Source of the DNA: Candidatus Methanoperedens sp.
GTDB lineage: Archaea; Halobacteriota; Methanosarcinia; Methanosarcinales; Methanoperedenaceae
Assembly (NCBI GenBank): GCA_012026795.1
Contig: VEPM01000017.1
Coordinates: 1-64,000, forward strand
Reading direction: 5' to 3'
Length of the DNA stretch: 64,000 nucleotides
Below the pieces are notes generated by a model, which was given only the letters and a program-made list of their open reading frames with translations, did not search any database and was not told the origin of the DNA. Position 1 is the first letter of the stretch. Each line of letters opens with the position of its first letter. The position numbers were made by a program, and so were the translations under genes. Positions 11,028 through 39,869 of this stretch are shown piece after piece.

Positions 11028-11927
11028 ATGAAAAAGAAAAAGACAAACGGACAAGCCAATAAACCGAACGATAAATTGCGGCAGGAGTTAGTGGATCATT
11101 TCCGTGAAAAGCGGGAACTTCTGAGGCAGCAATGGGTAGAGCAGATGATTACCAAGGGATTGCTCGCGGGTCTGAACCAGGAAGAGATTGAGACCGAATC
11201 GATCACGATCTATGATACCTGTATCGTCTGCCTGGAAACAGGAGAATATGACGGCGCCCAGACCTATGCCATACGCATGGCCGAACGCGGCGTGCTGCGG
11301 GGAATGACGAGCGAACAAATAATCGGCGGTTTGCTCACTCTTCGCGATGTGTATGGACGCAGCCTGTTTGAGCGATATCAGCAGGATATGGAGAGATTAT
11401 CATCAGCACTGGATATCTACGAACCTGTTGCCAATAAGATTCTTTCCATCGTTGCACTCGCTTTTGTCGAAGAGCGTGAAAAAATAGTCCGCCAGCAGCA
11501 AGAGGCTATCCAGGAACTCTCAACTCCGGTATTGCAGGTTCGTGACCAGATGCTCATCCTGCCGATCATCGGAGTGATCGATACGCATCGTGCCCGCCAG
11601 TTAACCGAGCAATTATTGCGCACCATCCGCACCAGCCGGGCCAAGGTCGTAGTTATGGATATTACCGGTGTGCCGGGAGTGGATTCTAAAGTGGCTAATC
11701 ATCTGGTGCAGACGGTGGATGCATCGCAGCTTATGGGTGCAACAGTCATCGTTACAGGTATATCACCTGAGATTGCCCAGACCCTTGTCACTCTTGGTGT
11801 GGACCTGACCAAAATGAACACCGTAGGCGACCTGCAAGGCGGGATTGAAGAAGCAGACCGGTTATTAGGCTACAAGGTTGTCAGGATAGATCCGGGAACT
11901 GGCTTTATTCGTAACGAAAAGGTGTAA
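11028..11927 (+). CDS. rsbR: RsbR-like stressosome sensor/scaffold (RsbRD-type N domain + STAS)
   Basis: A 299-residue stressosome co-antagonist. The N-terminal helical domain (about 18-150) resembles the RsbRD N-terminal family (HFREKRELLRQQWVEQM). A linker helix and a STAS domain (about 168-285) follow. In Bacillus RsbR, two STAS threonines are phosphorylated by RsbT; here the equivalent region has Ser220 (GVDSKVA) and Thr252 (IAQTLV). The ATG at 11028 is chosen because GGGAG lies just before it; an ATG at 11001 is also open. Arginine is mostly CGN and the gene is GC-richer than its neighbours, which suggests a bacterial origin. It leads a tight five-gene cluster. Confidence 0.85.
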   Translation: MKKKKTNGQANKPNDKLRQELVDHFREKRELLRQQWVEQMITKGLLAGLNQEEIETESITIYDTCIVCLETGEYDGAQTYAIRMAERGVLRGMTSEQIIGGLLTLRDVYGRSLFERYQQDMERLSSALDIYEPVANKILSIVALAFVEEREKIVRQQQEAIQELSTPVLQVRDQMLILPIIGVIDTHRARQLTEQLLRTIRTSRAKVVVMDITGVPGVDSKVANHLVQTVDASQLMGATVIVTGISPEIAQTLVTLGVDLTKMNTVGDLQGGIEEADRLLGYKVVRIDPGTGFIRNEKV

Positions 11928-11933
11928 CGAAAA

Positions 11934-12305
11934 ATGTCGGTTCCAATTCTTAAACAGGGTGATTACCTGATCGCTTCTGTTCAATCAGAGTTGAGCGATG
12001 CCGATTTGCTGAAATTACGGGATGACCTGGTAAATCGTGTAGGCGAGTTCCGTTCACGCGGAGTCATAGTGGATGTCACTATCCTGGATGTAATGGACTC
12101 GTTCGCGACCCGGACCCTGCGTTCCATGTCGCATATGATCATGCTGCGCGGTGCAAAAACAGTCATTGTCGGGATACAACCTGAGGTTGCATTTTCGATG
12201 GTGCAGCTGGGCCTGAAGCTGGAAAATGTAGCGACAGCGCTGGATCTGGAAGAGGGAATGGCACTCCTTGACCGTCAAACAAAAGGAGATACCAGGCGTG
12301 GCTGA
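11934..12305 (+). CDS. rsbS: RsbS-like STAS-only stressosome scaffold
   Basis: A 123-residue single STAS domain, the usual length of RsbS. The key phosphorylation motif is present as DVMDSFATR with Ser56, matching the serine that RsbT phosphorylates to release itself in Bacillus. RsbS and RsbR together form the about 1.8 MDa stressosome core in bacteria. It lies 6 nt after rsbR, and its end overlaps the rsbT start by 8 nt. Identification is strong because of length, motif and order in the cluster. Confidence 0.87.
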   Translation: MSVPILKQGDYLIASVQSELSDADLLKLRDDLVNRVGEFRSRGVIVDVTILDVMDSFATRTLRSMSHMIMLRGAKTVIVGIQPEVAFSMVQLGLKLENVATALDLEEGMALLDRQTKGDTRRG

Positions 12306-12711
12306 TGAAAATTGCATACCTATCAATTCCGAGATAGATATAGTGACAGCTCGCAAGAAGGGGCGGGAAATGGCCTCACAGTTAGGCTTCTCATCAACAG
12401 AATTGACCCTTATCGCCACTGCCATATCCGAGATAGCGCGTAACATCGTGGAATATGCCAGGAAGGGTAAAATCTCCCTGAGCATCGGCAAGCAGGGTGA
12501 TAAACGAGGTATCATTGTAATCGGCTGCGATGAAGGACCAGGCATTCCCAATATTAAGCTGGCTATGCAGGATGGCTATTCGACAGGGAAAAGTCTGGGG
12601 CTGGGCCTTCCCGGAGCGAAGCGGTTGATGGATGAGTTTGAAATCGTTTCTGAAGTCGGGAAGGGAACAAAAGTAACTATGAAGAAATGGGTGCAAAGCC
12701 ATGCCCGGTGA
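12298..12711 (+). CDS. rsbT: RsbT-like switch serine kinase
   Basis: A 137-residue GHKL-fold kinase. It shows the N box EIARNIVEYA, the G1 box DEGPGIP and the G2 region GLGLPGAKRLMDEF. In bacteria RsbT phosphorylates RsbR/RsbS, leaves the stressosome and activates a partner carrying an RsbU-N domain. The start is the GTG at 12298, which has AGGAG at 12284-12288 and gives the family length (about 133); an upstream ATG at 12268 would run 38 nt into rsbS. The next gene begins 11 nt before its stop. Confidence 0.87.
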   Translation: MADENCIPINSEIDIVTARKKGREMASQLGFSSTELTLIATAISEIARNIVEYARKGKISLSIGKQGDKRGIIVIGCDEGPGIPNIKLAMQDGYSTGKSLGLGLPGAKRLMDEFEIVSEVGKGTKVTMKKWVQSHAR

Positions 12712-13342
12712 AGTGACCGATCCACTCGGGTTGATTGAATGGGGTTCTTCCATGATGCCATTTCCAGGACAGAATGTCTCAGGCGATAGTTTATTGATCA
12801 AATCGTTTAAAAGCGGCATCCTCATAGCTGTCGTGGACGGGTTAGGACATGGCTATGAAGCTGCTGCAGCTTCCAGGATTGCAATTGAAACGCTTGATAC
12901 CAATACTAATACCAATACCGGTGCTAATGAACAAATTACCGCGATGGTCAGGCGCTGCCATGAGGCTTTGAAGGGAACACGCGGAGTGGTGATGAGCATT
13001 GCATTCCTGGATTTACCTGATAAGAAGATTACATGGCTTGGTGTTGGTAATATCGAGGGTATGCTGCTGCGGCAGGATACAAATTCAGTTATCACGCACG
13101 AGAGATTGCTGTTACGCGGCGGAGCATTAGGTTATCAACTCCCGCCACTAAAGGAAGCCGTTATCCCGTTTATACCGGATGATACGTTGATTTTTGTTAC
13201 AGATGGTATTAAAAGCAGTTTTGAAACCGATATAAACTTGAGTGAAAAGCCGCAACAAATTGCTGATAATATCATGGCACGGTTTGCCAGAGGTACAGAT
13301 GATGCACTGGTTCTTGTTGTGCGGTATGCAGATAAGAAATAA
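12701..13342 (+). CDS. rsbX: RsbX-like PP2C phosphatase
   Basis: A 213-residue PP2C/SpoIIE-type serine phosphatase with no sensor domain, like RsbX. Metal-binding motifs are SGDSLLI, the VVDGLGHG box and C-terminal FVTDGIK and TDDALVLVV. In Bacillus, RsbX removes phosphate from RsbS and RsbR and resets the stressosome. A small NTNTNTN tract (about residue 70) is encoded by an imperfect AAT/ACC repeat. It overlaps rsbT by 11 nt and lies 6 nt before the kinase gene. Confidence 0.83.
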   Translation: MPGEVTDPLGLIEWGSSMMPFPGQNVSGDSLLIKSFKSGILIAVVDGLGHGYEAAAASRIAIETLDTNTNTNTGANEQITAMVRRCHEALKGTRGVVMSIAFLDLPDKKITWLGVGNIEGMLLRQDTNSVITHERLLLRGGALGYQLPPLKEAVIPFIPDDTLIFVTDGIKSSFETDINLSEKPQQIADNIMARFARGTDDALVLVVRYADKK

Positions 13343-13348
13343 CAATAT

Positions 13349-15562
13349 ATGCAAATAAGAGACAACACTGCGGATGAATTAAAAAAGCAATACATATCAG
13401 CGCTCCAGGATTACCTTGAAGAAGGAGAGGAAAAGTCTCTGGAACATGCGTATGAGCTTGGTCGAAAAGCAATAGCCGACGGGAAAGGTATCCTGGATAT
13501 GGCAGCGGTTCACCAGGATGCGCTGGTTACGGTCCTGCCGCAGACAATAAAAAGAGGAGAGATAAAAGAAATTTTAAAAAAAGCAGCGCAGTTCTTCTCT
13601 GAGAGCATTGCACCGTTTGAAATGACCTTTCGCGGGTTCCAGGATTCTATTACTGAATTATATAACCTGAATAAAATTTTGGAACAATCAGAGATGAAAT
13701 TCCGCTCAGTGGTACAGGCAGCAAATGATGCGATCATTTCAGGTAAGAGCAATGGAGACATCATTTCATGGAACAAATGCGCAGAAACCATATTTGGCTA
13801 TTTCGAAGGGGAAGTAATTGATAAACCGCTAATCATCCTGATACCTGAACGGCTCAGGTATACCCTTTCCAGAAGACTGGAACGATTAATGTCGGCAGGT
13901 GAATCCGAATACAACAAAAAAATGTTCGAATCTTACGGGCGCAAGAAAGATAGAAGTGAATTTCCAATTGAGATTTCTATTGCAGCCTGGAAAACAGAAG
14001 AAGGAACATTTTACACCTGTATCATCCGCGATATCACTGAACGTAAGAGAGCGCAGGAGAAAATACGCGAACGTGCATCGCTTCTTAATATAACGCACGA
14101 CGCTATTGTGGTCAGGGACTTAGAACACAGGCTTACCGACTGGAATAAAGGTGCGGAGAAATTATATGGCTGGACCGAAGATGAAATCAAAGGAAAAAAT
14201 GCAAATGAGCTTCTCTATAAGGAAGAATCGCCAGGTCTTATGGAAGCCAGAAAGACCGTTATTGAAAGGGGCAAATGGACAGGCGAGCTTCGCCAGGTAA
14301 CAAAAGATGGTAAAGAGATCGTTGTGGATAGCCGCTGGGTACTTACTTACGATCGTGAAGGTGCACCAAAATCTATTCTTATCATCAATACTGATATAAC
14401 CGAGAAAAAGAAGCTTGAAGCGCAGTTCCTGCGGGCTCAGCGTATGGACAGCCTGGGTACGCTTGCAGGAGGAATAGCGCACGATCTTAACAATATACTG
14501 ACGCCAATAATGCTCTCGCTGCAAATATTAAAAGAAGAACGCCTGGAAGGGGATAAGCTAAAAATGTTCGATATACTCGAAAGGAATACAATGCGCGGAG
14601 CTGATTTGATAAAACAGGTGCTATTATTTGCGCGGGGAGCAGAGGGGGAACGCAGGACTATTCAGGTAACATATCTTATCTCAGAAATTGGGAAAGTTAC
14701 AAAAGAGACGTTCCCAAAATCTATCGAAGTAAGGTTCAATATATGCACCGGGCTGTGGGAAGTCACCGGAGATGCCACACAACTATATCAGGTTCTCATG
14801 AACCTGTGTGTGAATGCACGGGATGCGATGCCAGAAGGTGGAATCCTGACCATATCTGCTGAAAATCTTTTCATTGATGAAAACCATAAGCGGATGAATA
14901 TCGAGGCTAAAATCGGTCCTTACATTGTAATTACTGTCACTGATACCGGGACAGGAATCCCTCCTGAAATACTGGATAAGGTTTTTGAACCGTTCTTCAC
15001 TACAAAAGCGCGCGGTAAAGGCACCGGTCTTGGTCTTTCAACGTCTATCGGGATCATAAAAAGCCATTCGGGATTTATAGAAGTAAACAGCGAAGTTGGA
15101 AAAGGAACAGCATTTAAGGTATATTTGCCATCTGCTGCAACAACAGGAACGCAAAAAATAGAAGCACAGGAGCTTAACCCGCATACTGGAAATGGGAAAG
15201 TGATTCTTGTAGTTGATGATGAAGTTTCAATTCGTGAAGTTACAAGGATGATTTTAGAAACAAATGGATACAGGGTAATCACGGCCGCTGATGGAGCTGA
15301 AGCTATCTCATTGTATAAGGAGAAAGGAACGGAAATCAAAATTGTTCTTATGGATATGGCAATGCCAGTTATGGATGGCTATTCATGCATTCGGGCGCTT
15401 CTTAAAATTAACCCGGAAGTCAAGATAATAGCAGTAAGTGGTTTAATAGAAAAAGGGAATTTTTCGAAAGTTGCAAAACAGGTAAATACTTTTTTAAAGA
15501 AGCCTTACAGTGCTGAAGAATTATTGAAAACCATAAAAGATATCTCAGGATCAAATTATTAA
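13349..15562 (+). CDS. Hybrid histidine kinase with RsbU-N-like domain (RsbU_N-PAS-PAS-HK-REC)
   Basis: A 737-residue soluble kinase and last gene of the rsb cluster. Residues 10-105 look like the N-terminal RsbT-binding domain of RsbU (YISALQDYLEEGEEKSLEHA...PFEMTFRGF). Two PAS domains (about 115-225 and 240-350) follow, then HisKA with His378 in IAHDLNN, and a HATPase with NLCVNARDAM, DTGTGIP and GTGLGLS. The C-terminal receiver has Asp669 in VLMDMAMP and a KKPY lysine. By analogy, released RsbT would dock on the first domain and switch on the kinase, so the stress signal enters a phosphorelay. No membrane segment is seen. No separate output regulator is adjacent, and the target is unknown. 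Its 3' end overlaps the opposing oxidoreductase gene by 12 nt. Confidence 0.85.
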   Translation: MQIRDNTADELKKQYISALQDYLEEGEEKSLEHAYELGRKAIADGKGILDMAAVHQDALVTVLPQTIKRGEIKEILKKAAQFFSESIAPFEMTFRGFQDSITELYNLNKILEQSEMKFRSVVQAANDAIISGKSNGDIISWNKCAETIFGYFEGEVIDKPLIILIPERLRYTLSRRLERLMSAGESEYNKKMFESYGRKKDRSEFPIEISIAAWKTEEGTFYTCIIRDITERKRAQEKIRERASLLNITHDAIVVRDLEHRLTDWNKGAEKLYGWTEDEIKGKNANELLYKEESPGLMEARKTVIERGKWTGELRQVTKDGKEIVVDSRWVLTYDREGAPKSILIINTDITEKKKLEAQFLRAQRMDSLGTLAGGIAHDLNNILTPIMLSLQILKEERLEGDKLKMFDILERNTMRGADLIKQVLLFARGAEGERRTIQVTYLISEIGKVTKETFPKSIEVRFNICTGLWEVTGDATQLYQVLMNLCVNARDAMPEGGILTISAENLFIDENHKRMNIEAKIGPYIVITVTDTGTGIPPEILDKVFEPFFTTKARGKGTGLGLSTSIGIIKSHSGFIEVNSEVGKGTAFKVYLPSAATTGTQKIEAQELNPHTGNGKVILVVDDEVSIREVTRMILETNGYRVITAADGAEAISLYKEKGTEIKIVLMDMAMPVMDGYSCIRALLKINPEVKIIAVSGLIEKGNFSKVAKQVNTFLKKPYSAEELLKTIKDISGSNY

Positions 15563-17989: not shown

Positions 17990-18376
17990 TTATTCATCTA
18001 CAACAATCTTTTTCATCAACCATGCCATATTTTCTCCGAGATTCTTCATTGTCCGGATTCCCTCTTCATCTGTCCGGACATCCCCGATCTGTCTTCCAAG
18101 ACCCATGTTCCAGTAACTCGCACCCGGAACGATCATCTGGCTGATATGAAAGAAATGATTGATCGAGTCAAATCCATGGATCGCACCGCCTCTTCGATGC
18201 CCATCTTTTTTGTCTAAACATTTATAACAGGCTGTGCATCCCCGGATTTTTTCTCCTGAAAGTTCTATCAGTTCTGTTTCTATCCCGGCTTTCTCCAATT
18301 CATTCAACACATATTTAATAAGAATTGCAGTATTTCCTTGCTTTCTGGCGCTTCCATTAATTGCTATTACTTTCAT
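17990..18376 (-). CDS. Internally deleted iron-sulfur flavoprotein / FMN reductase
   Basis: A 128-residue open frame that begins like a normal flavodoxin-fold FMN reductase (MKVIAINGSARKQGNTA; Cys pair CTACYKC) and ends with its normal C-terminus (RRGGAIHGFDSINHFF through AWLMKK). The middle of about 65-70 residues, including the GSPTYF flavin-ring loop, is missing. The join is near residue 59 (about 18200). Full-length relatives have about 190-200 residues. The frame is intact and it overlaps the upstream REC-PAS gene by 4 nt, so it may still be translated, but FMN binding is probably lost. It is either a decaying gene or a repurposed fragment. Confidence 0.72.
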   Translation of the reverse strand: MKVIAINGSARKQGNTAILIKYVLNELEKAGIETELIELSGEKIRGCTACYKCLDKKDGHRRGGAIHGFDSINHFFHISQMIVPGASYWNMGLGRQIGDVRTDEEGIRTMKNLGENMAWLMKKIVVDE

Positions 18377-19716
18377 TTTATCTTTTCCTCTATTCTTATC
18401 GTTTCAAGTTGTGCTATCCTCTTTTTAAGTTCGATCATCTTGAGTTCACGCCCCACAAAGAGCCGGTTAATGCGTTCAATCTCTACTGTTTTCTTTTCGA
18501 GTTCCGCAGTTCGCTCCTTTACCATATCCTCAAGATGTTCGCGGTATTTTTTTAGTTCTTCTTCCACTTTCTTACGCCCGGTCAGATCAAGACCGAAGGT
18601 CCAGTTCTGTTCGCCCGTCGAAATGAAACTCCATGAGATGTATTTCTTTGAACCATCTTTGCAGGTAACGACAACTTCCATCGGTTCTATTTCCGATTTT
18701 GTTTCGATCGCCTGCCTGATCTTAGTTTGCCATTCTTCTTCGACCCTTGCGCGGTATTTTTCGTCAGGATAAGCCAGATTACACCATTTTTCCGCAGTTG
18801 GAACATCTTCTAATGTATAACCAAATAATTTAGTGAATGTGGGGTTTATGTATTCGGCTTTTTGCTTTATTCCAACTGACATGCATATAGCCAGAGGTGA
18901 TGTTTCAGCCATAGCCCTGAACTTTTCCTCGCTCTCGCGCAGCATTTCTTCCCCACGCTGGATATCGGTGATATCTCTTCCTGTAGATAGTGCCCCGGTT
19001 ACATTTCCATTTGAATCTTTGAGAACACGGCACCACCATGCTAAAAGACGCCGTTCGCCATCTTTTCGTCTCTGCCAGCTCCCAACATAAATAACATCTT
19101 CTCTTCCAGCAAATAAAGGCTGTACTATGTTGTAAGTTTTTTGTTCACCTTCAAAATAGAAAGAAGCTTCTTTTCCGATAACATCATCACCAAAGAATTC
19201 AAAACCAGCTTTGTTTGCCCATGTGTATATTTTGTTAATATCAACTTCCATAATAATATCCGGGACAGCAGACAGTATTGCTTCATAACGTAAAGATAAG
19301 GATCGCAGTGCCTCCCCGGTAATTTTCTGTTTTAGCCTTCCTGCCGCTTCTTCAAGTTCCCGCTCAATAGCAGGATTCAGGCGCCTCAGGTCGTCCTTCC
19401 TGACATAATCCTGTGCCCCTGCTTTCATAGCATCAACCGCCATATCTTCCCCGATCCTGCCTGAAACGAGGATAAAAGGCACATCGATCTCTTTTTTTTT
19501 CAATAATTCCAAAGCGGAAAGTCCGCTAAATCGAGGCATGACATAATCAGAGATAATGAGATCCCATTTCTTTGAATCAAGAGCTGTGCTCATAGCATCA
19601 GCATTATCAACACGCTCATATTCTGGTTGATAGCCTCCCCGCTTTAATTCTCTTATCAGGAGCAGAGCATCGTTCTGCGAATCCTCGACTATCAGAACCC
19701 GGAGTTGTTTGCTCAT
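18373..19716 (-). CDS. Response regulator with PAS domains (REC-PAS-PAS, no kinase)
   Basis: A 447-residue soluble signalling protein. The N-terminal receiver (about 5-125) has the acidic pair VEDS, phospho-acceptor Asp in IISDYVMP and the lysine in YVRKDD. Two PAS domains follow (about 145-255 and 265-385), and the end (390-447) is a charged coiled coil. No HisKA or HATPase is present, so it receives phosphate and ligand signals but has no catalytic output. It could be a target of an orphan kinase such as the hybrid kinase at 13349, but that is speculation. It overlaps the truncated flavoprotein gene by 4 nt. Confidence 0.8.
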   Translation of the reverse strand: MSKQLRVLIVEDSQNDALLLIRELKRGGYQPEYERVDNADAMSTALDSKKWDLIISDYVMPRFSGLSALELLKKKEIDVPFILVSGRIGEDMAVDAMKAGAQDYVRKDDLRRLNPAIERELEEAAGRLKQKITGEALRSLSLRYEAILSAVPDIIMEVDINKIYTWANKAGFEFFGDDVIGKEASFYFEGEQKTYNIVQPLFAGREDVIYVGSWQRRKDGERRLLAWWCRVLKDSNGNVTGALSTGRDITDIQRGEEMLRESEEKFRAMAETSPLAICMSVGIKQKAEYINPTFTKLFGYTLEDVPTAEKWCNLAYPDEKYRARVEEEWQTKIRQAIETKSEIEPMEVVVTCKDGSKKYISWSFISTGEQNWTFGLDLTGRKKVEEELKKYREHLEDMVKERTAELEKKTVEIERINRLFVGRELKMIELKKRIAQLETIRIEEKIK

Positions 19717-31226: not shown

Positions 31227-34200
31227 TTAACCAGTGATATTGAAGTTGTTATTGCCCGAATCAGTAATCGCAGGATTAATTGTGCTGTTAATCCGGATCA
31301 TATAGTCACTTCCCGGCAGCTGTGTTGCCGGAATTAACCAGGGATGTGAACCATCATTAAGGGTGCTTGCTACGATCAATCTGTTAAAAACCCCAGCTTT
31401 CAGGAGTTCTATCTTAACATACGTCCCTGGACTCTCAGTAGAGGTCCATTTGATGGTTTGGGTCATCCCCCTTCTCCAATTCTCTCCTCCATTTGGAGTT
31501 GCTACAGTAATTGAGGGAACAGGGATTGTGAAATTGCCATCGCTGATGTCATTGTTTGATGCGTTAATGGTACTTGTGATCTTCACTTTATAATCACTTC
31601 CCGGCGCCTGTGCAGAAGGAATTAGCCATGGATGTGAACCATCATTAAGGGTGCTTGATATGATCACCTGGTTTGGCTTCCCTGGTTTCAGGAGTTCTAT
31701 CTTAACATACGATCCAGGGCTCTCAGTAGACATCCAGTTTATAATTTTAGTTGTTCCTCTTATCCAGTTCTCTCCGTCATTCGGAGAAACGACAGTGATG
31801 GATGGAGCCATGATCGTGAAGTTGTTATCGCTTATGTCGCTGACCGAGGCATTTGTGGTGCTTGTGATCTTCACTTTATAATCACTTCCTGGAGCCAGTG
31901 CAGCCGGGATGGGCCATGGATAGGAGCCATCATTCAATGTATATGTTGTGATGGCACTCTTTAAAGCTCCGGCTTTGAAAAGTTCGATCTTGACATATGA
32001 TCCGGGGCTCTCAGTAGAGGTCCAGTTTATAATTTTAGTTGTACCTCTTCTCAAGTTCTCTCCGCCATTTGGAGAAATTACGGTGAAGGAAGGGGTCAGG
32101 ATCGTAAAGTTGTTATCGCTTATGTCGTTGTACGCTGGACTGGTCGTGCTTGTAATCCTAACTTTATAATCACTTCCCGGAGAAAGTGTTGGCGGGATCA
32201 TCCAGGGGTGAGAGCCGTCATTCGGGGTGCTTGATATGATTATAATCTTTGGCACTCCTGATTTTAGAAGTTCTATCTTGACATACCCCCCAGGATTGTT
32301 AGCTGAGCTCCAGTTTATGATTTCAGTTGCTCCCCTTCTTAAGTTCTCTCCACCATTCGGGGAAGCTACTGTGATCGATGGGGTGAGGATGGTGAAGTTG
32401 TTATCGCTGGTGTCATTGACTGCGGGATTTGTAGTGCTCGTAATCTTCACTTTATAGTCACTTCCTGGAGCCTGTGCCGCCGGGATAGACCATGGATGCG
32501 AACCGTCATTCAGGGTGCTTGATACGATCACCTGGTTTGGCTTACCTGGTTTCAGGAGTTCTATCTTTACGTACGATCCGGGGCTTTCAGTAGAAGTCCA
32601 GTTTATTATTCTGGTTGTTCCTCTTGTCCAGTTCTCTCCTCCATTTGGAGAAACGACTGTGATGGACGGAGTCATAATCGTGAAGTAGTTATCGCTGGTG
32701 TCAGTTATTATAGGATTGGTCGTGCAAGTGATCCTAACCATATAATCATTTCCCGGAGGCTGTGTCGGCAGGATCAGCCAGGGATGGAAACCGTCATTCA
32801 AGGTGCTTGCTACAATCAACTGGATCGGCTTACCTGGTTTCAGAAGTTCTATCTTCACATAAGCACAGGGTTTGTTAATTGGATCCCATATTATGGGTGG
32901 AGTTGTACCTCGTCTCCAGTTCTCGCCACCATTGGGAGAGACTACTTTGATCCCTGTCTCAGGAGGTTTGTAAGTAAGCGGCAGGTAGTCTGAATTGTTA
33001 CTATTGAATGAATATTTTGAATCGCAAATTCCATCCCTATCAATATCCGGGCAGGTCTGGCTGAAACCATTGCCTGATGGATTTGCCCAGAAGTTTCCTC
33101 CAAGAACAAAGCCACCAATTATGTTTATGCCAGGTTTTTTAGTGGTGTTCCAAGTATTTACATAATTTGTTCCAGTGAAAAGAAAATTGTTGGTATTATT
33201 GAAATAGTTGTTATAGATAATGTTTTTACTTGATGAATAAAGCTCTAATCCGTAATTATTTAAAATAAAAGTGTTATTTGTCAGAGTATTATCATTTGAA
33301 GAGTATATCGTGACGCCTCTTTCAGAATAATTTTGTAAATTGTTGGTTGAGAATTTGCTGTCCGTGATCGAGTTATTAGGAGACTGTCTCAGATAGATAC
33401 CCCATCCACTTTGCTTAACTGTTATATTTTGGATTCGAGAATTGCTGGTTGACCAGAAATAGACCCCTTTATCCATATTAGAAATTTCCATGTCTTTGAA
33501 AGTCACGTTATTGCATAAAATACAATAGAATGTGCTTGCTTTCATTGAACTGCCATATACGGTGTCCTTTCCATTTATTATATAATATACATGTCTTCCA
33601 TTAGCGAGGTTTGTTGTATCTATATTATTTCCATCAAAATGAGATGTAAGATTGCCGCCCACTCCAAAGTTAAAGCTGTTGTTTTCCATAATGTTGTCGG
33701 AAGCCGTGGTGTTAAAGGCATAGACGAAGAACATTCCATAGTTACTGTTGTAAACTTTGTTGCCTTTGATGATATTATCTGTGGAAGTGTCATAGACTCT
33801 GATTCCAAAGGAGGTGCTATTGGATATGTTGTTGCTGGTTATTTTGTTGAAGTTGGAAGAATTGAGGAAGATTCCTTGACTGTTTGAGGTGGCATTGTTA
33901 TCTCTGACCGTGTTATTATTTGAAATAACATTGATCCCTGCCTCTGTATTAGAACCAGCCCCTGTCACAGTAAAGCCTTCAAGCCTGATCCCATCCGCAG
34001 AAAGCGTGATCGCACTTCCGCTGCCTCTGGCATCCACAACAGGCATCCCGATACCGCGCAAATTTAACTGCTTGGTTACGTTCATGTTCTCGAAATAAGT
34101 GCCACTATCTACTTGTATCTCATTGCCTGGGTTGGCATCATTGATAGCCGCTTGGATAGTGATGTAGTGTTTACTCTTGTTGATGTTATGGACTGGTTTT

Positions 34201-37200
34201 CTTATGGAAAGCGGCAAGTAATCAATATTGACACTATCGAGTGTATAAACCGAATCGCATATATCATCTCTATTGCTGTCTTCGCATGTTTGGCTCAAGC
34301 CTATGCCCTCTGGGTTTGCCCAGAAGTTGCCTCCGAGATTGGTGCCTCCAATGATGTTAGTGCTGGATTGCCTGGTGGTGTTCCAAGTGTTAATATTTGA
34401 ATCCCAGAATTCAACATTATTGAGGTTGTTGAAAATGTTATTGAATATCGTGTTGTTGTTGCTGGAATACGACATCAGGATGCCTGTGCCACCCCAGTAG
34501 TCGCCGTTGTCAGATGCATTGTTGCCACTGAGCCTGTTGTTGCTGGAAGAGGACATTAAGATGCCGGCGTAGTTATTTAAGTTTGCATTGTTACCAATCA
34601 GTGTACTGTTATCTGATGATGTGAAAGAAATGCCTATGCCGCCATAGTAACCGTTGTTCGATGCATTATTGCCGATCAGGGTGTTGCTGCTTGACAAGGA
34701 AAGAGAGATGCCTGTGCCGCCATAGTAACCGTTGTTCGACGCATTATTGCCGATCAAGGTGTTGCTGCTTGACGAGGAAAGAGAGATGCCTGTGCCTCCC
34801 CACCATTCACCGTTGTTTGAGCTAGCATTGTTGCTGATGAGCGTATTATTGCTTGAAGAATAAAGATATATTCCAGAATCATCGTTGTTCCAAGTTGCAT
34901 TATTGCCGACCAATATGTTGTTGCTGGATGAAAACAGGGAGATGCCACCACGGTTGTTAGAAACAGTTATATTCTGTATTTTTGAGTAAGTAGTATTCCA
35001 GAAAAATATTCCCTTCATATTATTTTTCAAGTTAAGGTTTCTTAACGTTACATTTACACAACTTATACAATAGAAATTTCCTACAGTTGTATCAGAATCA
35101 TAAACTGTGTTTTTCGCGCCTTTTATGTAATATATAGATTTTCCATCCACCAGATTGGTTGTATCGATCTGATTGTCAAAATCTGAATACGAACTTCCGC
35201 CTAATCCAAAATTGTAATTATTCTCGTTCATTATATTGTTTACAAGTATGCTCTTGCTGGAATATGACAAAGAGATGCCTGTGCCCTTATAGTCACCGTT
35301 GTTTGACGCATTGTTGCCGACGAGCATGGTTTGGCTGGAAGAGGATAGGGAGATGCCTGTTCCGACGCCGCAGTAGTTGCAGCCGTAGTCATCATAATAA
35401 TAGTTCAAGTTTGCAGTGTTGTCGATCAGAGTGTTGTTGCTGGAAGAGGACAAAGAGATGCCGAAGCCATAGCCTTCGCCTGGATCAGCGTAACCATTGT
35501 TCGAGTTTGCATTATTGCTGATTAGCGTGTTGTTGCTGGAAGAAGAAAGAAAAATACCGTAACCATAGCCTTCGCCGTATTCGTATGTTCTTCCCCAGTT
35601 CGAGTTTGCATTATTGTTGATCAGCGTGTTGTTACTGGAAAAGGACAGAGAGATGCCGTAGCCGTAGCTATAGGCATAGTAATCATAGTAGTAGTCGCCA
35701 GCATCCCAGCCACCGTTACCCGATGCATTATTGCCTATCAGAGTATTGTTGCTGGAAGAAGATAGAGAGATGCCTGTGCCAACGGAATATTCACCGTTGT
35801 CCGATGCAGTATTGCCTATCAGAGTATTGTTGCTGGAAGAAGATAGAGAGATGCCTGTGCTGCCTCCGTACTTGTTGTCCGAAGCATCGTTGCCGCTAAG
35901 GGTGTTATTGCTGGAAGAGAAAAGAGAAATGCCGACGTCGTAGTTCAAATTTGCACTGTTGCTGCTGAGATTGCTGTTATTGGAAGAATACAGATAGATG
36001 CCATACCAATTGTTCGAGGCGTCGTTATCGATCAACGTGTTGTTGATGGAAGAAGACATAGATATACCATAGACATTGTTAGAGATAGTTACATTTTGTA
36101 TTTTTAACTGAGTAGTATTCCATATAAATATTCCATTCAAATTATTTTTCATATCAAGGTTTTTCAGAGTTAAATTCATGCAACTTATACAATATAAGGT
36201 TCCTACATTTGCATAAGAATCATAAACTATGTCTTTTGCACCTTTTATGTAGTATACGGATTTCCCATCCACCAGATTGGTTGTATCGATCTGATTGTCA
36301 AAATATAGGTATGAATCTCCTTCTACCCCAAAATTGTAGCTATTTCCGTTCATTACATTGTTTATAAGCACGTTCTTGTTGGAAGAGTATAGGGAGATTC
36401 CGTAGCCGTTGTGTGAAGCATTATTGCTGCTCAACGTGTTATTGCTGGAAGAAGATAGATAGATGCCGTAGCTGTTGTGTGAAGCATTGTTGCTGCTCAA
36501 CGTGTTATTGCTGGAAGAAGATAGATAGATGCCTATGCTGCCCCACCAGTAGTCGTTCGATGCGTTGTTGCCTGTCAGTGTGTTATTATTTGAAGTAACC
36601 TTGATACCTGCCTCTGTACTGCCCCCCCCGATCACAGTAAATCCATCAAGTATGCTTCCATTCGCAGAAAGCGTGATCGAGCTCCCGCTCCTTCTGGCAT
36701 CCACTACAGGCATGCCAACTCCACGAAGGATTAACCGCTTATTGACATTAACATTCTCGTAATAGGTACGGCTAGCCACACGTATCTCATCGCCTGGGTG
36801 GGCGTCGTTGATAGCTGCTTGGATGGTAGTATAGTTAGTGCCCTTGTTGATGTTATGAATTGAGCCTCTTGTGGAAAACGGAAGGTAATCGATATTGGTA
36901 CTATCAAGAGCATAAGCAAAATCGCATATGCCGTCTAAATTGCCATCGTCACAATTTTGGCTGATGCCTGAGCCATCTGGTTTTGCCCAGAAGTTACCGC
37001 CAAGGTATAAACCCCCGATGATGTTAGTTCGTGATTGCTTCGTAATGTTCCAGTTATTAATATTGGGATTAATGATTTTAACATTTTCAGTATTGTTGAA
37101 AATGTTGTCGTAGATTACATTGTTCTTGGAAGAGACCAGAACCATGCCTAAGGCGTTAGACGATACATTATTACCTCTCAACGTGTTGTTATTTGAAATT

Positions 37201-39404
37201 ATTTTGATCCCTGCCTCCGGATAAAAGGCTCCCCGTGTTGCAGTAAATCCTTCAAGAATAATTCCATCTTCAGAAAGCGTGAAAGCACTTCCGCTACCCC
37301 TTGCATCCACAACAGGACTTCCAAATCCACGCAGGGTCAATTGCTTATTAATTTGTACATTCTCATAGTAGGTTCCGTTTTTCACTGAAATTAGGCTTCC
37401 CGGATTTGCTCCATCGACAGCTGCCTGGATAGTCGTATAATCACAGCCAGTGGGGCAAACTGTGCGGTAAGTGATAGCTTTTTGAATATTCAAACGTCCC
37501 CCTGTCACAGTCTTTCCATTCAAAGAGGGGAGAGGATCAACACTATTCATTAAGATATTCTTGATTTCAAGATGGGTAAGCGATGGGTTTAATGCTTTTA
37601 ATAATGCAGATGCTCCTGAGACATGAGGTGCGGCCATCGAAGTTCCGCTATATGAAGAATATGAATTACCAGGGACTGAACTGAGAATATCAACACCTGG
37701 CGCCCCGATATCGATGGTCAGAGGTCCATAATTCGAAAAAGAGGCCAGATTATCATTCTTATCTGTTGCAGCTATTGATATGACATTCGGGACATCATAG
37801 CCAGAAGGATAATTTGGATATTGATCTGTATTTTCTGCCCAATTTCCCGAGGCTGCCACAAAAAGAATCCCGGCATTATCAGCAGCTTGAATAGCCGCTT
37901 CTAATGCTGATGAGTATTCTCCTCCTCCCCAGCTGTTGCTCATTATATCAACACCCATCATAGTTGCATAGTTTATTGCGTCAATCGCATCTGAAGTCCA
38001 ACCATAACCATCATCACCCAAAAATTTCACGGCCATAATATTAGTATTCCATAAGACACCTGCAACACCTTTGCCGTTATTGCCAACTCCCCCAATTGTT
38101 CCAGAGACATGGGTTCCATGAGAATTCCCATCCATGGGGTCATTGTCGTCATACGCAAAGTCCCAGCCATAATAATCATCTGCAAAACCGTTATTATCAT
38201 CGTCTATTCCATTATCTGGTATTTCTCCTATATTGGTCCACATATTAGCTGCAAGGTCTTCGTGTGTATAATCAACACCGGTATCAATTACTGCAACGAT
38301 CACTTCTTTATTTCCCGTGGAAATATCCCATGCTTGCGGTGCATCTATGTCTGCATCAGGTGTGCCTCCGGTCTGGCCTGTATTATTCATAGCCCATAGT
38401 TCATTAAAACGCAAATCGTTTGGAGTTTTTAATGCCTTTACTATGTAATTTGGCTCTGCATCCTCGAATTTATCGGAGAGGGAGAGACTTTCCATAGTTT
38501 TTTCAAGTTTTGATTCATCAACTTGAATAAGATTATATCTGATACTAGGATAATCTTTTATGAAAGTAATATTTTGCGATTTATAGAAAGTTTCAAAATC
38601 TTTTTTTTGTAATTTCGTAGTATATTTAACGAGTAATTCCCCAGGTTTATGTTTAGATTTTAATGAAGTGACATCAAACCTACTTCTTGATTTATTTGAT
38701 TTTAAAATATTATTATAATTAGCCCTTGGTTTCAAAGAGCCCAAAGGTTGGGTCTGGACTGCGCCCTTTTTTGAAGAAATATTAAGTACTGATGGCATTT
38801 GTGGCTCTGGGACAAAATACGCATTACCTATAATTCGCCCTGATTGGTTATTATTTCTTGAGAAAAGACCAGTTTGTGCCAATTTTCCGGTAAAATTTTT
38901 GTAAATGTTGAGTTTGTTATTGTTCGTCTTCACAATGAATTCATCGGTTCTAACGTTATTGATCGTTAGATATACCCTGGTTTTGTCATCGTTAAGTTTT
39001 AGCAAAAGAGAATTATTTCCAGTAGATACTTTTATGGTCATGCCACCATCGGTCTTTCCAATTGTTGCTGTTTTAATCCACTCGATATGAAATATACTCC
39101 TCAAAAGTGTTATTAGTCTGACAGTATCGTTTCCTGGAATATCATCCCAGCTAAATAAATATATATTTTTATTATTGTTAAGGTTATTCAATCGACCAGG
39201 ATGAATATCTCCCATTGTGATATTGGGTAGGGGTCTAAATGTTATCGTATCTCTAAGACTTTCTATATGGCTAATGTTCTTTAACCTTGTTGGAAAGTCC
39301 GATGAATTTGGAAAGATATGGGATTCCTGGGCTGCGGACGGATAAACAAGAACAATCGTGAGAATAAATAATAAAAGTATGTTACTATTTCTTAAAAACG
39401 TCAT
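31227..39404 (-). CDS. Giant secreted subtilase with NosD beta-helix arrays and Ig-like repeats
   Basis: A 2,725-residue exported protein. A signal peptide (MTFLRNSNILLLFILTIVLVYP) precedes a propeptide region to about 320 and a complete S8 peptidase (about 335-640) with Asp374 (VIDTGVD), His429 (NSHGTHVSG) and Ser589 (SGTSMAAPH). From about 650 to 2150 there are parallel beta-helix (NosD/PbH1) blocks. They are built of SSSNNTLxxNNAS-type units and restart several times with a TIQAAI(N/V)DA(N/H)PG leader and a YLP block. Six Ig-like repeats of about 95 residues (SPNGGENWRRGTT...) close the protein, without a membrane anchor or sortase motif. It may be a self-processing surface adhesin or carbohydrate-binding protease. 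Upstream lies a long leader with GAGGGAG before the ATG. Confidence 0.88.
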   Translation of the reverse strand: MTFLRNSNILLLFILTIVLVYPSAAQESHIFPNSSDFPTRLKNISHIESLRDTITFRPLPNITMGDIHPGRLNNLNNNKNIYLFSWDDIPGNDTVRLITLLRSIFHIEWIKTATIGKTDGGMTIKVSTGNNSLLLKLNDDKTRVYLTINNVRTDEFIVKTNNNKLNIYKNFTGKLAQTGLFSRNNNQSGRIIGNAYFVPEPQMPSVLNISSKKGAVQTQPLGSLKPRANYNNILKSNKSRSRFDVTSLKSKHKPGELLVKYTTKLQKKDFETFYKSQNITFIKDYPSIRYNLIQVDESKLEKTMESLSLSDKFEDAEPNYIVKALKTPNDLRFNELWAMNNTGQTGGTPDADIDAPQAWDISTGNKEVIVAVIDTGVDYTHEDLAANMWTNIGEIPDNGIDDDNNGFADDYYGWDFAYDDNDPMDGNSHGTHVSGTIGGVGNNGKGVAGVLWNTNIMAVKFLGDDGYGWTSDAIDAINYATMMGVDIMSNSWGGGEYSSALEAAIQAADNAGILFVAASGNWAENTDQYPNYPSGYDVPNVISIAATDKNDNLASFSNYGPLTIDIGAPGVDILSSVPGNSYSSYSGTSMAAPHVSGASALLKALNPSLTHLEIKNILMNSVDPLPSLNGKTVTGGRLNIQKAITYRTVCPTGCDYTTIQAAVDGANPGSLISVKNGTYYENVQINKQLTLRGFGSPVVDARGSGSAFTLSEDGIILEGFTATRGAFYPEAGIKIISNNNTLRGNNVSSNALGMVLVSSKNNVIYDNIFNNTENVKIINPNINNWNITKQSRTNIIGGLYLGGNFWAKPDGSGISQNCDDGNLDGICDFAYALDSTNIDYLPFSTRGSIHNINKGTNYTTIQAAINDAHPGDEIRVASRTYYENVNVNKRLILRGVGMPVVDARRSGSSITLSANGSILDGFTVIGGGSTEAGIKVTSNNNTLTGNNASNDYWWGSIGIYLSSSSNNTLSSNNASHNSYGIYLSSSSNNTLSSNNASHNGYGISLYSSNKNVLINNVMNGNSYNFGVEGDSYLYFDNQIDTTNLVDGKSVYYIKGAKDIVYDSYANVGTLYCISCMNLTLKNLDMKNNLNGIFIWNTTQLKIQNVTISNNVYGISMSSSINNTLIDNDASNNWYGIYLYSSNNSNLSSNSANLNYDVGISLFSSSNNTLSGNDASDNKYGGSTGISLSSSSNNTLIGNTASDNGEYSVGTGISLSSSSNNTLIGNNASGNGGWDAGDYYYDYYAYSYGYGISLSFSSNNTLINNNANSNWGRTYEYGEGYGYGIFLSSSSNNTLISNNANSNNGYADPGEGYGFGISLSSSSNNTLIDNTANLNYYYDDYGCNYCGVGTGISLSSSSQTMLVGNNASNNGDYKGTGISLSYSSKSILVNNIMNENNYNFGLGGSSYSDFDNQIDTTNLVDGKSIYYIKGAKNTVYDSDTTVGNFYCISCVNVTLRNLNLKNNMKGIFFWNTTYSKIQNITVSNNRGGISLFSSSNNILVGNNATWNNDDSGIYLYSSSNNTLISNNASSNNGEWWGGTGISLSSSSSNTLIGNNASNNGYYGGTGISLSLSSSNTLIGNNASNNGYYGGIGISFTSSDNSTLIGNNANLNNYAGILMSSSSNNRLSGNNASDNGDYWGGTGILMSYSSNNNTIFNNIFNNLNNVEFWDSNINTWNTTRQSSTNIIGGTNLGGNFWANPEGIGLSQTCEDSNRDDICDSVYTLDSVNIDYLPLSIRKPVHNINKSKHYITIQAAINDANPGNEIQVDSGTYFENMNVTKQLNLRGIGMPVVDARGSGSAITLSADGIRLEGFTVTGAGSNTEAGINVISNNNTVRDNNATSNSQGIFLNSSNFNKITSNNISNSTSFGIRVYDTSTDNIIKGNKVYNSNYGMFFVYAFNTTASDNIMENNSFNFGVGGNLTSHFDGNNIDTTNLANGRHVYYIINGKDTVYGSSMKASTFYCILCNNVTFKDMEISNMDKGVYFWSTSNSRIQNITVKQSGWGIYLRQSPNNSITDSKFSTNNLQNYSERGVTIYSSNDNTLTNNTFILNNYGLELYSSSKNIIYNNYFNNTNNFLFTGTNYVNTWNTTKKPGINIIGGFVLGGNFWANPSGNGFSQTCPDIDRDGICDSKYSFNSNNSDYLPLTYKPPETGIKVVSPNGGENWRRGTTPPIIWDPINKPCAYVKIELLKPGKPIQLIVASTLNDGFHPWLILPTQPPGNDYMVRITCTTNPIITDTSDNYFTIMTPSITVVSPNGGENWTRGTTRIINWTSTESPGSYVKIELLKPGKPNQVIVSSTLNDGSHPWSIPAAQAPGSDYKVKITSTTNPAVNDTSDNNFTILTPSITVASPNGGENLRRGATEIINWSSANNPGGYVKIELLKSGVPKIIIISSTPNDGSHPWMIPPTLSPGSDYKVRITSTTSPAYNDISDNNFTILTPSFTVISPNGGENLRRGTTKIINWTSTESPGSYVKIELFKAGALKSAITTYTLNDGSYPWPIPAALAPGSDYKVKITSTTNASVSDISDNNFTIMAPSITVVSPNDGENWIRGTTKIINWMSTESPGSYVKIELLKPGKPNQVIISSTLNDGSHPWLIPSAQAPGSDYKVKITSTINASNNDISDGNFTIPVPSITVATPNGGENWRRGMTQTIKWTSTESPGTYVKIELLKAGVFNRLIVASTLNDGSHPWLIPATQLPGSDYMIRINSTINPAITDSGNNNFNITG
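31233..32960 (-). repeat. Six tandem repeats of about 285 nt (Ig-like domains)
   Basis: The 3' part of the giant gene consists of six direct repeats of roughly 280-297 nt. Each encodes one SPNGGENW...NFTI domain, resembling the Kre9/KNH-type (Ser-Thr-rich anchored) repeat. Long stretches are near-identical between copies, so copy-number change by recombination is likely. Confidence 0.75.
34430..37200 (-). repeat. Short tandem repeats encoding beta-helix coils
   Basis: DNA units of about 66-100 nt encoding SSSNNTLIGNNAS-like coils recur many times. The copies at about 34660-34735 and 34720-34800, and those at about 35735-35790 and 35808-35860, are almost identical, which points to recent duplication. 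Confidence 0.7.
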
Positions 39405-39869
39405 ACTATCACTCCCTCGCCGCCACTATCCACAACAGGCACCGCCCCCTGCTCTCTATCAACAATTCAAGAGCAATCGTTCCAATCGCTATCAAGAGGA
39501 TATGTCCTCTCCACACATAATTACCAGATACCATTTTCCATACCTACCTTGATTTACAGTCCGCTCTTTCGAGCATGACCACCAATATTAACCTTATCCA
39601 TCCGATGAAAGTATATAAAACTTTCGTTATAATATTATACTGATTATATTAATCATTATGCTCATGTTCGAAATCATTAACTTGATTTAAAGAAAGATCT
39701 GGGATGAACCAATTCAGAAGCCTTGCCCTACCTTCCTTCCTTTCCCAACCGGGGCGAGCGCCTCAACCCCAGGTGGGAAAATGCGCGACCATAAACTATT
39801 TAACCTCCACCTTCATTATAGCATTGTTCGTAGTCAGACGAATGATTCCAAACAGGAAAAATAATAAAA
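39405..39869. other. Intergenic region with dyad-flanked TATA and GC hairpin
   Basis: 465 nt between divergent genes. GAAAGT-ATATAAA-ACTTTC at 39607-39625 is a perfect 6-bp dyad around a TATA box that could serve the giant gene about 200 nt away. A 34-nt GC-rich imperfect hairpin occupies 39744-39777 (arms CCCAACCGGGG / CCCCAGGTGGG). A second TATA-like ACTATTTAAC lies at about 39793-39802 for the plus-strand gene. Short frames here lack support. Confidence 0.45.

Follow-up and report, generated by a model that had tools for sequence, protein, structure and literature searches.

A complete stressosome gene set with a putative histidine kinase exit in a Candidatus Methanoperedens genome

A stretch of 64,000 nucleotides from the archaeon Candidatus Methanoperedens sp. 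(assembly GCA_012026795.1, contig VEPM01000017.1, positions 1 to 64,000; hereafter the window) carries five intact, tightly packed open reading frames (ORFs) without internal stops on the plus strand at 11028–15562, encoding RsbR, RsbS, RsbT, RsbX and a hybrid histidine kinase. By sequence, the stressosome gene set of this archaeon is confirmed as complete. The kinase begins with an RsbU_N domain, on which RsbT would dock by homology, so the fifth gene is supported as a putative stressosome output by more than mere adjacency; the whole is likely to be an archaeal stressosome module that exits through a histidine kinase by docking of RsbT on RsbU_N. rsbR (11028–11927, 299 amino acids) is separated by a 6-nt gap from rsbS (11934–12305, 123 amino acids), which overlaps rsbT (12298–12711, GTG start, 137 amino acids) by 8 nt; rsbT overlaps rsbX (12701–13342, 213 amino acids) by 11 nt, and a second 6-nt gap precedes the kinase gene (13349–15562, 737 amino acids). 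A preliminary description of this DNA had given the same five packed genes and spacings, and both hold. Its claim that the first four genes match the Bacillus set stands for the motifs, together with structure matches, but not for the order, since in Bacillus rsbX comes last, after sigB; the contiguous rsbR-rsbS-rsbT-rsbX (RSTX) arrangement is that of many other bacteria (PMC9237108).

The features of the four stressosome proteins are all present, namely an RsbR head and STAS domain with two phosphorylation sites, the RsbS serine, the RsbT kinase and the RsbX phosphatase (E values are from sequence matches to solved stressosome proteins in the PDB, which place the identifications well outside chance; domains are from Pfam). 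RsbR matches the cryo-electron microscopy chain of Listeria stressosome RsbR (7b0u, E 9e-33) and combines a predicted globin-like, all-helical sensor head (about residues 12–164), ending in a 44-residue helix, with a STAS domain (residues 167–259, nt 11526–11804, E 4e-16). In the alignment with 7b0u, the phospho-acceptor positions T186 (nt 11583–11585) and S220 (nt 11685–11687) are equivalent to Listeria T175 and T209, the second site being a serine here, and both positions are occupied by serine or threonine in all 21 archaeal RsbR sequences. The AlphaFold2 model of RsbR (predicted local distance difference test, pLDDT, 79.5; predicted template modelling score, pTM, 0.52) contains the helical globin-like head, the long helix and the STAS domain; its best Foldseek match is again Listeria 7b0u over 271 columns, with a low template modelling score of 0.42–0.45 because the domain orientation is loose, as the pTM indicates. 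The head is globin-like in Foldseek as well (5ohe, E 2e-3). Haem sensing by RsbR as in Vibrio was considered and rejected; H24, the sole histidine of the head, is not conserved outside the genus clade, so haem binding appears unlikely. RsbS is a single STAS scaffold protein that likewise matches cryo-electron microscopy chains (6jhk, E 3e-26; 6qcm, E 5e-26), and its phospho-acceptor S56 (nt 12099–12101) is invariant in 24 of 24 archaeal sequences. RsbT reads as a stand-alone GHKL serine kinase (HATPase_c_2, 46 bits) with all ATP-site motifs; E45, N49, D78, G80 and G82, together with the RsbU-contact residue R19, are invariant in 21 of 21 archaeal RsbT proteins, and R23 is R or K across the same number. 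RsbX reads as a single-domain PP2C-type feedback phosphatase of the SpoIIE family (63.8 bits), matching Moorella 3zt9 (E 4e-14) and Bacillus RsbX 3w40 (E 2e-10).

The N-terminus of the fifth protein, which the preliminary description had missed, is an RsbU_N domain (PF08673, residues 13–92, nt 13385–13624; 36.7 bits against a cut-off of 25.5), followed by two PAS domains (PAS_9, residues 127–231, nt 13727–14041; PAS, residues 242–349, nt 14072–14395), a HisKA dimerisation and phospho-acceptor domain (nt 14453–14644, 39.5 bits) with H378 in the motif AHDLNN (nt 14480–14482), an HATPase_c catalytic domain (residues 474–595, nt 14768–15133, 82.8 bits) and a REC receiver domain (Response_reg, residues 619–729, nt 15203–15535, 74 bits), whose probable phospho-acceptor is D669 in the motif VLMDMAMP. 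In the 3.59-Mb genome only one RsbU_N match exceeds the cut-off, in the gene directly after rsbX; a possible second target, a 100-residue frame at C16:29211, scores 18 bits, under the cut-off, and is taken as chance. In a control set of 14 genomes, B. subtilis alone has a match. A profile of the archaeal RsbU_N domains finds B. subtilis RsbU (2j6z) at E 2.6e-18. At the position of RsbU E24, which contacts RsbT and corresponds to E28 in the window protein, 25 of 26 archaeal RsbU_N domains have E and the remaining one has D. Furthermore, the predicted model of the domain comprises three helices and a 48-residue fourth helix (residues 72–119) running into the first PAS domain, the layout expected of a linker-controlled enzyme.

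In Bacillus, RsbT released by stress docks on RsbU_N and activates RsbU by rigidifying a helical linker (PMC12143880), and Baral et al. (2025) proposed RsbU_N as an exchangeable module on histidine kinases, extending the linker mechanism to them (PMC12143880). By homology, the STAS domains of the window RsbR and RsbS would bring the two proteins together into an assembly that holds RsbT; once the globin-like head of RsbR receives a signal, RsbT would phosphorylate T186 and S220 of RsbR and S56 of RsbS, residues that are present here, and leave. The freed RsbT would dock on the fifth protein at its RsbU_N head, altering the helical linker between RsbU_N and PAS/HisKA and thereby switching histidine autophosphorylation, as the RsbU mechanism suggests. 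The phosphate would pass to the REC domain of the kinase itself and/or to an orphan response regulator, RsbX would reset the hub by dephosphorylating RsbR and RsbS, and a sigma factor would have no part in the pathway. Several points weigh against this pathway. For the archaeal proteins, each of particle assembly, release of RsbT and control of the kinase is an inference. Foldseek returned no significant match for the RsbU_N model, a small helical bundle being uninformative, so the assignment of the domain rests on its sequence. Among the interface residues of the RsbU–RsbT pair (PMC12143880), RsbU Y28 corresponds to E32 in the window protein, I74 and I78 to S and A as read by eye, and RsbT N24 to E24, differences that show at least a drift of the interface. 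In addition, the two PAS domains could supply the kinase with inputs of its own.

The same gene order recurs in many genomes of Methanosarcinales, an order in which 38 of 186 genomes encode RsbT relatives; R-S-T-X-(RsbU_N protein) recurs across 33 Methanosarcinales-type neighbourhoods, some of which have a second RsbT-like gene or RsbU_N ahead of X. RsbU_N is present at 32 of these 33 loci, the exception (L053) being cut by the contig end right after rsbX, and in every one of the 31 archaeal output proteins scanned with Pfam (each E<=1e-5). The rest of these proteins varies (HisKA in 25, HATPase in 24, REC in 10, GAF in 7), and none of the 31 contains PP2C, GGDEF or EAL by Pfam; three clusters of the same genus (L043–L045) even pair an RsbU_N that is 52–53% identical to that of the window with a kinase lacking REC. 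Judged by domain content, a constant RsbU_N on varying downstream parts is a natural domain swap. The constancy of RsbU_N bears on how RsbT would reach its target. RsbT might act on the fifth protein chiefly as a Ser/Thr kinase, by transient phosphorylation and without stable docking, a mode put forward for Vibrio vulnificus, where the two-component protein encoded downstream has no RsbU_N and gave no interaction with RsbT (PMC9237108), and the catalytic residues of the window RsbT are intact; however, RsbU_N in all scanned outputs of the order argues for docking as in RsbU, which makes the phosphorylation route unlikely.

In two related genomes, an orphan rsbT is directly followed by an RsbU_N-GAF-GAF-histidine kinase gene without rsbR, rsbS or rsbX (L057:5848–8288, minus strand; L058:6934–9440, plus strand); both genomes also have a full RSTX cluster (L043, L044), and the orphan pair is possibly a second output of the same hub. 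Such orphan pairs and the two PAS sensor domains of the window kinase also speak for a kinase that stands upstream, its RsbU_N binding RsbT to compete with the stressosome or to report a PAS signal, with the output elsewhere. That arrangement has a slightly smaller chance still than transient phosphorylation, given that the Bacillus hub exits through RsbU_N (PMC12143880) and that the genome has no other RsbU_N target over the cut-off.

In a set of 394 genomes from the phylum, 29 have RsbS, 24 have RsbU_N and 17 have both, against 1.8 expected (hypergeometric 5.5e-17, which is not a true probability since the genomes are related). The 12 RsbS genomes outside the order have no Pfam RsbU_N; those inspected contain R-S-T, in many cases alongside another RsbT that is fused to the phosphatase, and in several of their clusters R-S-T is followed by PAS/coiled-coil kinases without RsbU_N. 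One archaeal protein of 1253 amino acids (L160:7523–11284), directly after R-S-T-(TX), joins an RsbT-like GHKL domain to several PAS domains and a histidine kinase. Stressosome-like modules thus appear to be fairly common across this archaeal phylum and to couple to kinases in at least two predicted ways. Fusions of an RsbT-like domain to an RsbX-type phosphatase were observed at the archaeal loci L052:7958–8944, L160:6486–7526, L161:7133–8137 and L164:6195–7274, and in bacterial L108, L114 and L118 too. In high-GC, haloarchaea-like genomes (L164, L166, L167), R-S-T-(TX fusion) precedes PAS histidine kinases without RsbU_N, all with an 'ETNEGMVALTLEL' coiled coil.

The archaeal identity of the contig, also asserted in the preliminary description, is borne out. 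The genome contains mcrA, with full-length alignments to the MCR chains 9qr1 and 9qqt (1306 and 1255 bits), and no sigma factor; mcrA and kinship suggest an ANME-2d/Methanoperedens-like host. The cluster sits between leuC/leuD and a DAO-type oxidoreductase gene and recurs on independent assemblies, in synteny with sister genomes: L033 has both flanks in common with it, and L034 and L035 have one each, the oxidoreductase and leuC/leuD respectively. Bacterial contamination, which would fit the bacterial origin of the closest RsbT sequences outside the genus (up to 65% identity), was rejected on the synteny, mcrA and the absence of sigma factors, and its probability is practically negligible. Elsewhere in the window, an ORF of 2725 amino acids (31230–39407, minus strand) is by far the longest.

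A tree of concatenated RsbR, RsbS and RsbT from 98 loci, whose root was not inferred, requires four changes between archaeal and bacterial labels, at least three of them forced by its starred branches. The window clade (14 same-genus clusters) lies beside a bacterial clade of 56 rows, apart from other archaeal clusters, some of the same genus. Simultaneously, the GC content at third codon positions (GC3) of rsbR, rsbS and rsbT (0.52–0.56) exceeds the value of about 0.40 for most of the window and is its maximum, save for an overlapping pair of opposite-strand ORFs at about 46 kb (0.50); rsbX and the kinase gene are ordinary. These switches and the raised GC3 suggest horizontal transfer as the simplest reading of how the module entered these archaea, with bacteria the probable donor, although the direction is inferred, not shown, the tree being without an inferred root. 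A horizontally acquired cluster could also be poorly integrated, giving no assembled stressosome or no expression, and this would fit the raised GC3 and the uneven occurrence in the genus, with the cluster in 17 of the 32 genomes listed, this one included; however, at least 14 related type-1 clusters, with RsbT identity down to 68–72%, have retained all reading frames and active-site residues, a sign of purifying selection, and poor integration is quite improbable.

The preliminary description had argued that archaea have no sigma factor and that the output must differ, and the genome agrees. Searches of the own genome with STAS, HATPase_c_2 and Sigma70_r2 (PF04542) profiles found no sigma-70 region 2, no third STAS protein or RsbV-like STAS and no stand-alone RsbW over the cut-off; a hidden SigB-like cascade is thus rejected, and the output cannot be such a cascade. 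Two further statements fared less well. Bacterial stressosomes were said usually to release a sigma factor, which is inaccurate: most bacterial RSTX clusters lack sigB and stand beside other outputs (PMC9237108); most of the bacterial clusters sampled here end in RsbU_N kinases. The fifth gene was also taken to suggest a phosphorelay. The genome encodes 30 REC domains and a single HPt recognisable by Pfam, a search that a divergent HPt could escape, and this HPt lies in a separate ORF of 653 amino acids next to CheY-like RECs, probably CheA. A classical multi-step His-Asp-His-Asp phosphorelay is therefore unsupported and was set aside, and the most likely direct recipient of phosphate from the kinase is its own REC domain or an orphan response regulator. 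An orphan REC-PAS-PAS protein is encoded 2.8 kb from the cluster (18373–19716, minus strand), with a homologue near the cluster in L043, and is conceivably a partner of the hybrid kinase.

Compared with the Bacillus and Listeria stressosomes (6qcm, 7b0u), the predicted archaeal set has the same four proteins, domain layout and phospho-acceptor positions and an RsbT-docking domain on the next protein. The differences are that the RsbU phosphatase, RsbV, RsbW and sigma-B are absent, that rsbX is placed within the block, that RsbU is replaced by a hybrid histidine kinase, and that the genome has no RsbR paralogue. Vibrio vulnificus RSTX-D1-D2 (PMC9237108) is likewise contiguous, followed by two-component proteins, without sigma-B and with a single RsbR, but it combines a haem globin RsbR sensor with a kinase lacking RsbU_N, whereas the archaeal set has RsbU_N and no obvious conserved haem histidine. 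In Moorella thermoacetica (MtR/MtS/MtT/MtX/MtG), RsbU_N joins the stressosome to a non-phosphatase enzyme as here, the output being a GGDEF diguanylate cyclase instead of a histidine kinase (PMC12143880). Bacillus cereus RsbK is also a hybrid histidine kinase feeding a stress response, but its control does not run through a stressosome and its pathway leads via RsbY to sigma-B (PMC7522486). The gene order R-S-T-X-(RsbU_N output) and the RsbR subfamily are shared with bacterial clusters in which RSTX is joined by RsbU_N histidine kinases (Acidobacteriota, Rokubacteria, Proteobacteria, Mycobacteriaceae), which, unlike the archaeal set, also use PP2C, GGDEF/EAL and HD outputs. Among 44 bacterial outputs from the closest RsbT loci, a sample biased by its selection for similarity to archaeal RsbT, 31 carry HATPase_c, eight PP2C, two GGDEF/EAL, one HD and one REC; a REC-bearing hybrid kinase occurs in one of the 44, against 10 of the 31 archaeal outputs.

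The architecture itself is already known in bacteria. Heinz et al. (2022) noted RSTX in diverse bacteria "and even some archaeal species" and described proteobacterial downstream proteins of which some have RsbU_N and some are HisKA/REC phosphorelay proteins (PMC9237108), and proteobacterial RSTX with RsbU_N histidine kinases appears in both PMC9237108 and PMC12143880. A literature search, with most subscription journals outside its reach, found no paper on an archaeal stressosome, and rsbT or rsbR together with methanogens or Methanosarcina gave no match. New here are the exit coupling, its distribution in archaea and its hybrid-kinase form.

The stressosome has been studied as a bacterial hub, mostly for the release of a sigma factor, and complete, conserved sets in sigma-free archaea point to a core that is independent of sigma factors, the constant RsbU_N on changing outputs marking its exit socket. 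How one hub is re-plugged to different enzymes can now be approached in another domain of life, in what is probably a methane oxidiser of the ANME-2d type, a host whose stress signalling has received almost no study. With somewhat less assurance than for the module itself, a true working stressosome particle in Archaea is favoured, in this order rewired solely to histidine kinases through the shared RsbU_N socket. If this is true, one hub with interchangeable kinase outputs would govern archaeal metabolism or TBP/TFB-based gene expression, and sigma factors would be wholly absent from the pathway.

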